Shown: positions 26,100-56,919 of the stretch, one piece after another | Layout of the letters: each line of letters begins with the position of its first letter | How positions within the stretch are numbered: the stretch's first letter is position 1 | Source: Vallitaleaceae bacterium 9-2 | GTDB taxonomy: Bacteria; Bacillota; Clostridia; Lachnospirales; Vallitaleaceae | NCBI GenBank assembly: GCA_038396585.1 | Contig: CP121691.1 | Span: 1,550,001 to 1,614,000, forward strand | Direction of reading: 5' to 3' | DNA: 64,000 nt | Translations under genes and position numbers: made by a program | The notes under the pieces: generated by a model | Seen by the model: only the letters and a program-made list of their open reading frames with translations | Told to the model about the DNA's origin: nothing | Databases searched by the model: none

Positions 26100-26275
26100 A
26101 AAAGATACCTGAGATGTACGATACTCTCGATATTTTGAACCTACATATTGAATATGGGAATCTTATATTTTATCATTGATGCCATGCCTTAAGTGGAAGG
26201 CAGATGTGATAGTGCGGATACCCACCTAGCTACGCTAGGGATCAAAATTCGGGAAACGGCATTTTGGGTTGTAAA
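26100..26275 (+). ncRNA. ssrS: 6S RNA candidate
   Basis: A non-coding stretch of about 176 bases behind a strong promoter folds like 6S RNA, the sigma-A RNA polymerase decoy. The closing stem pairs 26107-26117 (ACCTGAGATGT) with 26259-26269 (GCATTTTGGGT), 11 bp including G-U pairs. A terminal arm uses TATCAT/GTGATA and GCCTT/AAGGC, and a small CCTAGC/GCTAGG hairpin lies in the 3' side of the central bubble. The 5' side carries TTTGAACCTACA and the 3' side GGATACCCACCT and CAAAATTCGGGAAACGG, which I recall from clostridial 6S RNAs. A hairpin terminator follows at 26289. Recognition is from memory and hand folding. Confidence 0.78.
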
Positions 26276-52498: not shown

Positions 52499-54676
52499 AT
52501 GTACGAACAAAGAAAAGACATTTTACAAGATCATAAAAAACGTAAAAAAATTCTCATGGATATTATATCCAGTAATGAATATAAACCTTTGAAGCTCAAA
52601 GGATTTAAAATACTACTTGGCCTTGATGACCAAGAGGTAAAAGAACTGGAGTTTTTATTAAACGAGCTTGTTACCGAAGGAAAACTCATTGTAACAAATA
52701 AACAAAAATATATTCTCAATGAAGATAAAAACTATTTGGTGGGCACATTTGTCTCCCATCCCAAGGGCTTTGGGTTTGTTGAGATTGAAGGACGGGATGA
52801 TGATATATTTATCCCAGTGGATTTTACCAACGGGGCTTTTCATGGTGACACGGTATCGGTAAACATTAAAGTAGAAAAGTCCGGTGAGCGTCGTGAAGAA
52901 GGGGAAGTTGTTCAAGTTCTTAAGCGTGGAATTGATACGCTTATTGGGACGTTTCAAAAAAGTAAAAATTTTGGTTTTGTTGTTCCGGATCATAAAAAAC
53001 TGACCAAAGATATATTTATACAAAATGGAAAAACCAATGGTGCCGTTAATGGACATAAGGTTGTTGTGAAGATACTTAACTGGGGACGTGAAGGTAAAAA
53101 TCCAGAAGGTGTTGTTATGTCGATTATTGGACATATCAATGATCCTGAGACAGAGATTAAATCCATAATGATGGCCTATGGTCTAGCGACAGAGTTTTCT
53201 CAAGAGTTGATGGAAGAAGTCAAGCAGGTGCCGGATCAATTAACCCAAGAGATGATTGACCAAGAAGGTCATCGAGAAGACTTGCGTCAAGAGATGACGG
53301 TGACCATTGATGGTAAAGATGCCAAAGACCTGGATGATGCGATTACCTTAAAGAAAATATCCAAGGGGTTTGAACTTGGCGTTCATATTGCCGATGTGAC
53401 GCATTATGTGCGAGAAGGGTCAGCCCTTGATCAGGAAGCTTTAGAGCGCGGCACAAGTGTGTATTTGGTGGACAGGGTTATACCGATGTTACCCCATCGC
53501 TTGTCCAACGGGATATGCTCTCTTAATGCGGGAGAAGACCGGTTTGCCCTAAGTTGTATTATGGAAATTGACCAAAAAGGAAAAGTAAAAAAACATCGAG
53601 TGGTTGAGACCATTATCAATGTGAATGAGCGCATGAATTATGATGATGTCAAACAAATTCTGGTGGACCATGATCTTGAATTGAAAAAGCGATATCATCA
53701 GCAGATGGACATGTTTAAAACGATGGAAGAACTACAGAAGATTTTGCAAGAGCGTAGACGTCAACGTGGCTCCATTGAATTTGATTTTCCAGAGGCTAAG
53801 TTCAACCTAGATGACAAAGGAAGAATTGTTGATATCTATCCATATGAACGGAGTGTAGCGACCAAGGTTATCGAGGAGTTTATGCTTTTGGCTAATGAAA
53901 CGATTGCAGAAGAGTTTCACTGGCAAGAGATTCCTTTCCTCTATCGAAGCCATGAAGAACCCGATCCAGAAAAGATTCGTAACTTAACGGAGTTTATCCG
54001 TAACTATGGCTATAAATTAAAAGGAAAGGAACTTGAACCGCATCCCAAGGAGATTCAAAAACTTTTGGTTGAGATCGAAGGAAGCGAACAAGAGACTATC
54101 ATTAGTCGATTAGCTCTTCGATCTATGAAACAGGCGAAGTATACAACTACAAGTGATGGACATTTTGGTTTGGCAACGGACTATTATACTCATTTTACTT
54201 CGCCGATCAGACGGTATCCGGATTTGCAGATCCATCGTATTATTAAGGATGTCATCAATGGACGTTTGGATGACAGGCGCTATGAGCATTATGAAGATAT
54301 TATGGATAAGGTCGCGGCACAGACATCCAAATTAGAACGACGTGCTGAGGAAGTTGAACGGGAAGTATCGAAGTTCAAAAAAGCAGAATATATGGAAGAT
54401 AAAATCGGACAGATGTTTCGTGGTGTTATCAGTGGCTTGACCAACTGGGGAATATATGTGGAACTTCCTAATACCATCGAGGGATTGATTCCGATGAATC
54501 GATTGACCGACGATTACTATAATTATGATGAAAAACACATGACGCTGATTGGAGAACGTAGTGGACGAATCTTTAGGTTAGGCGAACCTGTTATAGTAGA
54601 AGTCCTATCCGTGGATAAGCGCATGCGTACCATTGATTTTGGCATTCTCTATGAAGATGTCGACGACGAAGAGTAA
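52499..54676 (+). CDS. rnr: Ribonuclease R
   Basis: A processive 3'-5' exoribonuclease that degrades structured RNA and takes part in trans-translation. Domains in order: an N-terminal helix-turn-helix-like region, two cold-shock domains (about residues 75-220), the RNB catalytic domain with TIDGKDAKDLDDAI holding the catalytic aspartates and FTSPIRRYPDLQIHR, then an S1 domain near residues 635-715. The protein ends soon after S1 without the long basic tail of E. coli RNase R. Length 725 residues. AAGGAG precedes the ATG. The conserved rnr-smpB-ssrA order follows. Confidence 0.95.
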   Translation: MYEQRKDILQDHKKRKKILMDIISSNEYKPLKLKGFKILLGLDDQEVKELEFLLNELVTEGKLIVTNKQKYILNEDKNYLVGTFVSHPKGFGFVEIEGRDDDIFIPVDFTNGAFHGDTVSVNIKVEKSGERREEGEVVQVLKRGIDTLIGTFQKSKNFGFVVPDHKKLTKDIFIQNGKTNGAVNGHKVVVKILNWGREGKNPEGVVMSIIGHINDPETEIKSIMMAYGLATEFSQELMEEVKQVPDQLTQEMIDQEGHREDLRQEMTVTIDGKDAKDLDDAITLKKISKGFELGVHIADVTHYVREGSALDQEALERGTSVYLVDRVIPMLPHRLSNGICSLNAGEDRFALSCIMEIDQKGKVKKHRVVETIINVNERMNYDDVKQILVDHDLELKKRYHQQMDMFKTMEELQKILQERRRQRGSIEFDFPEAKFNLDDKGRIVDIYPYERSVATKVIEEFMLLANETIAEEFHWQEIPFLYRSHEEPDPEKIRNLTEFIRNYGYKLKGKELEPHPKEIQKLLVEIEGSEQETIISRLALRSMKQAKYTTTSDGHFGLATDYYTHFTSPIRRYPDLQIHRIIKDVINGRLDDRRYEHYEDIMDKVAAQTSKLERRAEEVEREVSKFKKAEYMEDKIGQMFRGVISGLTNWGIYVELPNTIEGLIPMNRLTDDYYNYDEKHMTLIGERSGRIFRLGEPVIVEVLSVDKRMRTIDFGILYEDVDDEE

Positions 54677-54708
54677 AGATGTAGAATTTAGTAATAAAAC
54701 TGTAATAT

Positions 54709-54761
54709 CAGAACACTTGCATTTTGAGGTGAGTATGCTATAATAAAATGCACGTGTTCTG
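54709..54761. promoter_or_regulatory. 17-bp inverted repeat bracketing the smpB promoter
   Basis: Left arm 54709-54725 (CAGAACACTTGCATTTT) and right arm 54745-54761 (AAAATGCACGTGTTCTG) match at 16 of 17 positions. Between them lie 19 bases containing TATAAT (54739-54744); a TTGCAT -35 (54717-54722, 16-base spacing) lies in the left arm. The start point falls in the right arm. A third AACA-type element (GTGAACA) follows at 54769-54775. It is best read as an operator or processing hairpin; there is no T run. Confidence 0.65.
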
Positions 54762-54803
54762 ACACGTTGTGAACATGTAAAGATAGATAAGGTGGTGAAC
54801 ATA

Positions 54804-55277
54804 TTGGCTAAATCAAAAGATGCCTATCGTTTAGTAGCACAAAACAAAAAAGCATATCACGACTATTTTGTCGAAGAAAAATTTGAAGCCGGTATTGTTC
54901 TTGCTGGAACTGAGGTAAAGTCTATGCGACAAGGAAAGGCTTCAATTAAAGAAAGCTATGTCCGTATTCGCAACAAAGAAGTCTTTATCCAGGGAATGCA
55001 CATAACGCCTTATGAAAAGGGTAATATCTTTAACAAAGATCCATTGCGTGAGCGTAAGCTCTTACTTAACCGTTATGAGATTAATAAGCTTGAAGGCGCT
55101 ATTGCGACGAAAGGTTATACCTTAATGCCGCTAAAAGTATACCTCAAGGGAAGTCTCATGAAGGTCGAGATTGGCCTATGCAAGGGTAAGAAAATCTATG
55201 ACAAACGTCAAGATATTGCAAAAAAAGATCAACGTAGAGCTGCCGAAAAAGACTTCAAGGTGAAAAACCTATATTAA
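54804..55277 (+). CDS. smpB: SsrA-binding protein SmpB
   Basis: SmpB carries tmRNA to stalled ribosomes. The conserved N-terminal [20 protein letters not shown], the [19 protein letters not shown] core and the basic C-terminal tail ([13 protein letters not shown]) are present. A longer frame begins at GTG 54792, inside the AAGGTGGTG ribosome-binding site; TTG 54804 gives the standard short N-terminus and 157 residues. tmRNA begins 28 bases after the stop, so the protein and its RNA are neighbours, as in many Firmicutes. Confidence 0.96.
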
Positions 55278-55305
55278 ATCTTTTGGGTAAAAAGCTTGCC
55301 AGTAC

Positions 55306-55653
55306 GGGGGTGTACTGGTTTCGACGGGGATTTTGAAGTCAGGGAAGCCATTCGCAGTTCCGGCGTCTGCGTCAACAAGCTGGAAAATATTTAAACGCTG
55401 AAGATAATAATTTAGCATTCGCAGCCTAAGGCTGCGTGTCAGCCTCTAATCACCCGCTGTTAGAGAATCTGGCATCGACTTTGCGGGGCACTTGCATGCC
55501 TAAGCTTTGCGGCTTGTAAAGACTATCATGAAGCTACTGAAGCGATAAGCCTGTCGGCCGGCGTATCGTAGAGGGAATGTCAAAAGACCAACTATAATGG
55601 TAGAAGTCTGATGGACGGATTTTCGGACAGGGGTTCGATTCCCCTCACCTCCA
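55306..55653 (+). ncRNA. ssrA: Transfer-messenger RNA (tmRNA)
   Basis: The acceptor stem pairs GGGGGTG (55306-55312) with CACCTCC (55646-55652), discriminator A at 55653. The 5' segment reads TGTACTGGTTTCGACGGGG and the 3' T-arm GGGGTTCGATTCCCC, both tmRNA hallmarks. The tag frame at 55397-55429 starts at resume codon GCT and encodes AEDNNLAFAA followed by TAA. The genome has CTA after the discriminator, so CCA is not encoded and must be added after transcription. Pseudoknot regions lie between the tag and the 3' half. Length about 348 bases. A terminator follows. Confidence 0.96.
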
Positions 55654-55661
55654 CTATCTAT

Positions 55662-55702
55662 ATCCCTGCCCACCTTAAAATTAAGATGGACAGGGATTTT
55701 TT
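55662..55702 (+). terminator. Terminator after tmRNA
   Basis: An imperfect stem built from ATCCCTG.CCA.CTTAA and TTAAG.TGG.CAGGGAT is followed by TTTTTT. It lies immediately downstream of ssrA. Confidence 0.88.
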
Positions 55703-55749
55703 CGAACTCAAGTATATATTGTAATCTATAAAGAGAGTGTGAGACGAGA

Positions 55750-56919
55750 ATGAAAATACGCGTGCCGAGTTATTACAAGGAGTTTAAATGCATAGCATCA
55801 GCATGTGAAGATACTTGTTGTGCAGGGTGGGATGTTGTAATTGATGCTAAAACCTATCAGGCCTATCAGAATATGGACGGTGCCTTTGGAGAACGCTTAA
55901 GAAACAAGATGATTGTTGATAAAGAAGGTGACAACATTTTTGTTTTAGATGGTATACGATGTCCGTTTTTAGATAAGGAGAATTTGTGTGACATACATAA
56001 AAATCTTGGAGAACAGTATCTTTGCCACACATGTAAGCAATATCCACGATATAGAGAAGAGTTTTTTGGCTTAAGAGAAATGGGGATTTCCTTATCTTGT
56101 CCTGAAGCGGCAAGAATAATACTAAGAAATCCTGCAGGAATTGAATTTGAACTTAGCGAAGATAGTGCGGTTTCTAAAGAGCTAAATGAGGGAGAAGAAG
56201 ATATATTGCAGGAGTTTTTTCGGTGCAGAGAGACTATTTTTCAAATCCTAGAGACCAAGGATATGCCCTTAGGGATTAGAGCAGCGATTGTGCTTAAGTT
56301 TGTACAAGAGATTCAAGATAGAATAGATTTTAGTGAACTGAATGTCTTGCCTGAACTTAGACAAAAATATGAAGATAGTCACTTTATTTCGGAATTGGTT
56401 CAAAAATTATGTGCTTTTATGGGAGCAGATGACATAAAGTATCATAACGTACATGCGTATTTTAATACATACAGTAAGTTAGAGCATATCAACAGCGAGG
56501 ATCCCTTAGAGCTCAATAGGATTTTAAGTATATACTGGACAAGTACTAGAGCAGGTCAAGGGCTTTATATTCAAAAGCATAAAGAATTTAATTGGTATTA
56601 CATGCAGAAGATGGATGCATTTGAAAAGATTTTGGTGTATTTTGTCTATAGGTATTTTATGAAGTCGTTTTACGACTATGATATGTTATCAAAAATTAAA
56701 GTGGCACTGATGAGTACAATTATGGTTAAAGAACTGGCTGTCATAAGGTGGATAGAGAAGGGAGAGCTGAGTGAAAGTGATATGGTAGACATAAGTCATA
56801 CGTATTCAAAAGATATCGAACACTTAGAAGAGAATATAGAAACTTTAGCGACAATTTTTGAAACAGAGGACGTATATACTGTTGATAAAATTATAGAAAC
56901 CTTGATACATGAATTTTAA
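55750..56919 (+). CDS. FliB family lysine N-methylase-like protein
   Basis: A 389-residue protein with the cysteine pattern of flagellin lysine-N-methylase FliB: Cys14, Cys19, Cys23 and Cys24 followed by AGWD, then CPFLDKENLCDIH, and CHTCKQYPR. These cysteines are thought to bind an Fe-S cluster or zinc. FliB methylates flagellin lysines in Salmonella, and Firmicutes homologues are annotated likewise. No flagellin gene is in the window, although cheY and cheA lie 7 kb downstream. Methylation of another surface protein is possible. The start ATG 55750 follows GAGAGTGTGAGACGAGA. Confidence 0.82.
   Translation: MKIRVPSYYKEFKCIASACEDTCCAGWDVVIDAKTYQAYQNMDGAFGERLRNKMIVDKEGDNIFVLDGIRCPFLDKENLCDIHKNLGEQYLCHTCKQYPRYREEFFGLREMGISLSCPEAARIILRNPAGIEFELSEDSAVSKELNEGEEDILQEFFRCRETIFQILETKDMPLGIRAAIVLKFVQEIQDRIDFSELNVLPELRQKYEDSHFISELVQKLCAFMGADDIKYHNVHAYFNTYSKLEHINSEDPLELNRILSIYWTSTRAGQGLYIQKHKEFNWYYMQKMDAFEKILVYFVYRYFMKSFYDYDMLSKIKVALMSTIMVKELAVIRWIEKGELSESDMVDISHTYSKDIEHLEENIETLATIFETEDVYTVDKIIETLIHEF

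Follow-up and report, generated by a model that had tools for sequence, protein, structure and literature searches.

The inverted repeat that brackets the smpB-ssrA promoter of Vallitaleaceae bacterium 9-2 is probably a young quasi-palindrome that lies on an ordinary conserved promoter and has no dedicated operator function; we assign this reading a probability of roughly 0.55. The repeat lies in a 64,000-nucleotide stretch of contig CP121691.1, referred to as a whole as the window, and positions are numbered from its first letter. The features of the region are as follows.

52499..54676, plus strand: rnr (RNase R), the upstream neighbour, with Pfam domains RNB, CSD2, OB_RNB and S1
54691..54706, plus strand: conserved upstream element GTAATAAAACTGTAAT, a direct repeat (A)GTAAT-N5-TGTAAT located 26 nt before the -35 TTG
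54708..54725, no strand assigned: left arm of the inverted repeat, which holds the -35 box; 18/18 identical in the sister species G001, one change in the same-species genome G116
54717..54722, plus strand: -35 box TTGCAT, part of the left arm and separated from the -10 by a 16-nt spacer
54736..54744, plus strand: extended -10, TGCTATAAT
54745..54762, no strand assigned: right arm of the inverted repeat, which starts where the -10 ends and covers the presumed start point
54752..54767, plus strand: ACGTGT-TCTG-ACACGT, a small hairpin that overlaps the right arm and would lie at the 5' end of the smpB mRNA
54804..55277, plus strand: smpB, with a TTG start (Pfam SmpB, E 1.9e-60)
55306..55654, plus strand: ssrA (tmRNA)

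A gene for a VWA/adhesive-domain protein comes first in this region, followed by rnr, smpB, ssrA, an open reading frame in which no Pfam domain was detected, and genes for a GGDEF and a GH16 protein. Between the stop of rnr and the start of smpB there are 127 nt, and smpB and ssrA are presumably co-transcribed, since only 28 nt lie between them. An earlier reading made from the sequence alone had stated that no terminator follows rnr, and this was borne out: no plus-strand terminator-like site was detected in 54300-55900, where the two sites that were detected both lie on the minus strand. The repeat was rejected as an intrinsic terminator of rnr because no plus-strand site, with a GC-rich stem and then a T run, is present. 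A weak minus-strand terminator-like site was noted at 54767-54752, and no gene that would use it was seen. Elsewhere in the window, a 6S RNA gene lies at 26103-26274 (Rfam RF00013, 77.9 bits).

The -10 hexamer TATAAT (54739-54744) is preceded by TGC and lies in the centre of the repeat. The placement described in the sequence-only reading, with the arms overlapping the -35 and the start point and TATAAT central, agrees with the positions read directly in the sequence. Genome searches recovered smpB in 114/116 and 21/22 genomes, and 115 smpB upstream regions were collected, 35 loci from these searches and 80 further loci. One region was too short and 104 were distinct; TTG lies 15-18 nt before TATAAT in 39 of the distinct regions and is not so placed in the other 65/104. 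Of those 39 regions, 37 have a 16-nt spacer and 38 have the extended form TGnTATAAT. The recurrence of both characters indicates that the promoter is genuine and predates the genus, which upholds the earlier claim that the repeat brackets a real promoter. TTGCAT is also the most frequent TTG hexamer before TATAAT, accounting for 7/102 such sites in a 464-kb genome sample, and the core of the left arm can therefore be regarded as an ordinary -35 box. The start point of smpB-ssrA would lie at approximately 54750-54752, as judged from the spacing.

By its sequence, the smpB promoter qualifies as a sigma-A extended -10 promoter, in that a -35, TGnTATAAT and fixed spacing are present and conserved in orthologues. 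It shares the TTG box, the 16-nt spacer and the extended -10 with the sigma-A (housekeeping) class of extended -10 promoters in Firmicutes, and differs from an ordinary member in the 18-bp inverted repeat superimposed on it.

The repeat had been described with 17-bp arms (54709-54725 and 54745-54761) that match at 16 of 17 positions. This geometry was reproduced and one further outer pair was found, so that arms at 54708-54725 and 54745-54762 pair at 17/18 positions with 19 nt between them; the GTGAACA element said to follow is present at 54769-54775. In 9.28 Mb of sequence generated from a third-order Markov model, 2 repeats scored at least as high as the smpB repeat, equivalent to 0.1 per 464 kb. 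Symmetry by chance was rejected on this background, in agreement with the claim that the repeat is far longer than composition would produce. The real 464-kb sample (the 64-kb window and 20 other stretches at roughly even intervals) contains 24 repeats scoring at least as high, 16 of them terminator-like and 8, including the smpB repeat, not; long inverted repeats as such are therefore not rare in this genome. The smpB repeat is the only one of these 24 with TATAAT on either strand within it. If the 7 other non-terminator repeats were placed randomly, approximately 0.03 (7 x 102 x ~20 / 464,000) would be expected to coincide with any of the 102 TTG..TATAAT sites. A long imperfect inverted repeat with 21-nt arms, a 43-nt loop and a score of 12 was also observed at L151:10213-10297; it has TATAAT in the loop and adjoins a T or A run.

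Pairing of the arms declines quickly across the genus (g1). It stands at 17/18 here and at 16/18 in the same-species genome G116 (locus L039, to which L044 is identical in sequence), where an A to G change in the left arm breaks the DNA pair and leaves G-U in the RNA. In the sister species G001, whose SmpB is 97% identical, 14/18 positions pair: no position of the left arm or of the innermost 13 nt of the right arm differs, and the outer portion of the right arm reads TACAAA where this genome has TTCTGA, adjoining an 11-nt length difference near which the alignment is ambiguous. In G002 (SmpB 85% identical) the promoter is present and the repeat is absent. The sequence-only reading had named arms not conserved in close relatives as evidence against its proposal, and this is largely what the other three genomes from the genus display. 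It had also suggested looking in relatives for compensatory changes in the arms. None was found among the three repeat-bearing sequences of the genus, in which L039 has the one G-U and L010 has unpaired positions, and the change within the species disrupts a pair.

Identity to G001 is 15/16 in the upstream element, 18/18 in the left arm, 6/6 in the -10, 13/13 in the inner right arm and 8/13 in the spacer. The conservation of the arms can thus be explained by conservation of the promoter, since neighbouring promoter parts are conserved almost as well as the arms. The inferred youth of the repeat rests on three species of the genus, with the complete repeat in one species and a shorter form in its sister.

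In the preferred model, smpB-ssrA has a strong extended -10 housekeeping promoter to itself, and sequence comparison shows this promoter to be conserved far outside the genus. The left arm consists of the -35 box and its flank, and the right arm of the stretch from the -10 to the presumed start together with the first transcribed bases. The repeat most likely lengthened through mutation, such as template switching between imperfect arms, and would itself have no dedicated operator function. Template switching between inverted repeats yields clustered changes, according to the available parts of two reports (PMC8604942, PMC8794818). The smpB repeat resembles the quasi-palindromes attributed to this process, as outlined in those reports and in PMC7202029, in its imperfection and in the clustering of arm changes between relatives; the difference from G001 may be a gain here or a loss there. 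From the geometry, any effect of the long stem in RNA would be restricted to read-through transcripts from rnr, since RNA that starts at the smpB promoter does not include the left arm.

The earlier reading had proposed that an operator of this size points to regulation of ribosome rescue. In such a scheme, a dimeric or tetrameric repressor would bind both arms, loop or cover the promoter and repress smpB-ssrA, which we consider unlikely. Arms over the -35 and the start region occupy the classic position for a repressor, and the repeat lies far beyond what composition would give by chance. The smpB promoter of genus g3 is likewise bracketed by an inverted repeat, in a different register, which extends to 10 bp in L027, L035 and L037. 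The repeat is shorter in the other g3 loci, at 7 bp in L032 and L040 and 6 bp in L025. The g3 arms are CATTACTTGC/GCAAGTAATG, shorter in 3/6 loci.

The operator proposal was nevertheless not supported by the conservation of the repeat or by its recurrence. The sister species does not keep the outer arm, the third species has no such repeat, and no compensatory change was seen in the genus. A genome-wide search with the arm sequence at up to 3 mismatches gave 63 matches, including both arms, versus 45 for the reversed pattern. The two arms are the only exact matches, 51 matches carry 3 mismatches, and 10 non-self matches carry 1-2. Seven of these 10 lie in open frames of at least 368 codons and two in open stretches of 142-145 codons; the tenth (L007) lies where no open stretch exceeds 53 codons. 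TATAAT at the smpB spacing accompanies 0/10 of them, and the idea of an element repeated at further promoters was rejected as far as these 10 closest non-self matches show. The genome search that had been suggested for further promoter copies of the arms thus returned none in this set. The pattern CTTGCATTTT-N13-TATAAT has an exact match here only, and with up to 2 mismatches it occurs 28 times in the genome versus 14 for the reversed control.

Two further points stand against a repressor. The 6 neighbouring genes scanned include no DNA-binding regulator (one of them has no Pfam hit), and the arm centres are 37 bp apart, or approximately 3.5 turns, which would place the half-sites on opposite faces of the helix. 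LexA-type operators can be compared by the motif GAAC-N4-GTTC, and none was seen when the sequence was checked by eye. No inverted repeat of this kind at an smpB or tmRNA promoter is described in the titles and abstract beginnings of the literature surveyed. Regulation of an ssrA promoter as such is already known, from an AraC-type regulator in Aeromonas veronii, as stated in the available part of PMC12710916.

Bracketing was also assessed across the 39 promoters. The mean arm match is 5.74 within genomes versus 4.68 across genomes, and 0/200 shuffles reach 5.74. Because the promoters are related by kinship, the shuffle tests of arm matching overstate significance and are not clean probabilities. 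A score of 8 is reached by 6/39 promoters (L009, L010, L027, L035, L037 and L121). With g1 and g3 taken out, matching within genomes is still slightly higher (4.80 versus 4.47), a level that 6/200 shuffles reach. A general promoter-bracketing architecture around smpB is, on this comparison of sequences, possible but unproven.

The second proposal in the sequence-only reading concerned RNA. Read-through RNA from rnr would fold into a 17-bp hairpin and an RNase III-type cut would separate rnr from smpB-ssrA; in the version considered here, the hairpin may also shield the rnr 3' end. We regard this as improbable, although the predicted structure itself is strong: the claim that read-through RNA could form such a hairpin is supported by the in silico fold of 54700-54770, at -22 kcal/mol (z -3.47, with 0/200 shuffles as good). 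L039 retains the stem through the G-U pair, L010 can form an inner stem of 11-12 bp, and no plus-strand terminator-like site intervenes between rnr and smpB. Against it, wider folds are weaker, both here (54674-54815, z -1.81, 9/200 shuffles as good) and in relatives (L039, z -1.84, 7/200; L010, z -1.21, 22/200). The element is absent in G002 and occurs outside the genus in other registers only, and compensatory changes preserving the pairing, by which an RNase III hairpin may be recognized, were not found in the genus. Since smpB has its own conserved promoter, cleavage would also be unnecessary for its expression.

That processing of a common rnr-smpB transcript could link the output of RNase R and SmpB is plausible in kind, by analogy. 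Such a link has been described in S. pneumoniae, where the available part of PMC3534368 describes co-transcription of rnr and smpB with intergenic processing. The arrangement there resembles the present one in that rnr immediately precedes smpB and has the same orientation. It differs in that the two S. pneumoniae genes overlap and, in the same part of that report, no active smpB promoter was found, whereas here a 127-nt gap contains a promoter for smpB.

Upstream of the repeat, the 16-nt element is, from its sequence conservation, a better candidate for regulation than the palindrome. GTAAY-N5-TGTWAY lies exactly 26 nt before the -35 TTG in 7 genomes, 4 of g1 and the 3 smpB-bearing genomes of g8. 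Across 6 pairs of g1 and g8 genomes, identity is 13-14/16 in the element, 2-6/16 in the 16 nt upstream and 3-5/10 in the 10 nt downstream. The element is missing at the corresponding place from 12 other loci of the family aligned on the -35. Among the 115 upstream regions there are 16 instances of the looser pattern GTWAY-N5-TGTWAY, 10 of them at the fixed place and 6 elsewhere; the 10 represent 7 genomes, three counted twice, and L042 is misplaced in that count.

Searches of whole genomes defined no regulon. The strict pattern GTAAYANAAYTGTWAY has 1, 2, 1, 3, 3 and 2 matches in G000, G001, G002, G016, G013 and G009, and its reversed control has 1, 3, 0, 0, 3 and 0 in the same order; the pattern is thus not enriched over the control in these six genomes. 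The genes behind the other pattern matches, identified from translations, share no common theme (an RlmL-like methyltransferase in g8, a lipoprotein-like open reading frame here). The extended pattern GTWAY-N5-TGTWAY-N10-TTG-N19-TANNNT has one exact match each in G000 and G016, both at the smpB promoter. Allowing one mismatch adds one match in G000, and the reversed control gives 0 and 2 in G000 and G016. Because the pattern was derived from those sites, this result expresses rarity and is not independent proof. A separate observation is GTCATATAAGTGTAAC at G000:C1:1758064-1758117 (L191), which lies at equal distance before a promoter-like TATAAT ahead of a lipoprotein-like open reading frame; a similar site is present in G001.

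The element resembles the WalR box, whose consensus is given in the available part of PMC9210968 as TGTWAH-N5-TGTWAH. With its preceding base it reads AGTAAT-AAAAC-TGTAAT, with equal spacing and one mismatch to that consensus. It differs from the box in its first position, where T is replaced by A or G in 7/7 of the g1 and g8 genomes, such that the strict consensus is missed by one mismatch in each of the 7. One-mismatch matches are common, with 522 intergenic ones in C. difficile according to the same part of that paper, and the likeness is therefore weak evidence; binding of WalR to the element is not claimed here. In a broader form of this idea, an OmpR/WalR-type regulator would bind GTAAY-N5-TGTWAY, and some lineages would add a bracketing repeat for repression or for coupling to rnr read-through; we hold this combined scheme to be quite improbable.

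The small hairpin at the putative 5' terminus of smpB mRNA offers the least probable of the explanations. By this account, ACGTGT-N4-ACACGT would slow 5' decay of the smpB mRNA, and the larger repeat would be a by-product, because the right arm overlaps the hairpin. The 6-bp stem is identical in G000, G116 and G001 while the loop changes from TCTG to ACAA in G001, the hairpin alone is predicted to fold at -5.8 kcal/mol (-6.3 in L010), and the entire L010 leader is predicted to adopt it. This account is very unlikely, as the hairpin is absent in G002, the invariance of the stem wherever it is present affords no covariation, the whole leader here (54751-54803) favours a different fold at -11.7, and the fold of 54750-54830 is no better than shuffles (z -0.44).

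The preferred reading, a young quasi-palindrome on a conserved promoter, bears on how ribosome rescue is viewed in these organisms. If the palindrome were an operator, trans-translation in these clostridia would be regulated and not a standing activity. The evidence shifts regulatory interest from the palindrome to the 16-nt upstream element, which is conserved in both g1 and g8 at a constant spacing from the promoter. If an OmpR/WalR-type regulator does act there, ribosome rescue would be under specific transcriptional control in Vallitaleaceae, and the element offers a compact site at which regulation of smpB-ssrA can be tested directly.
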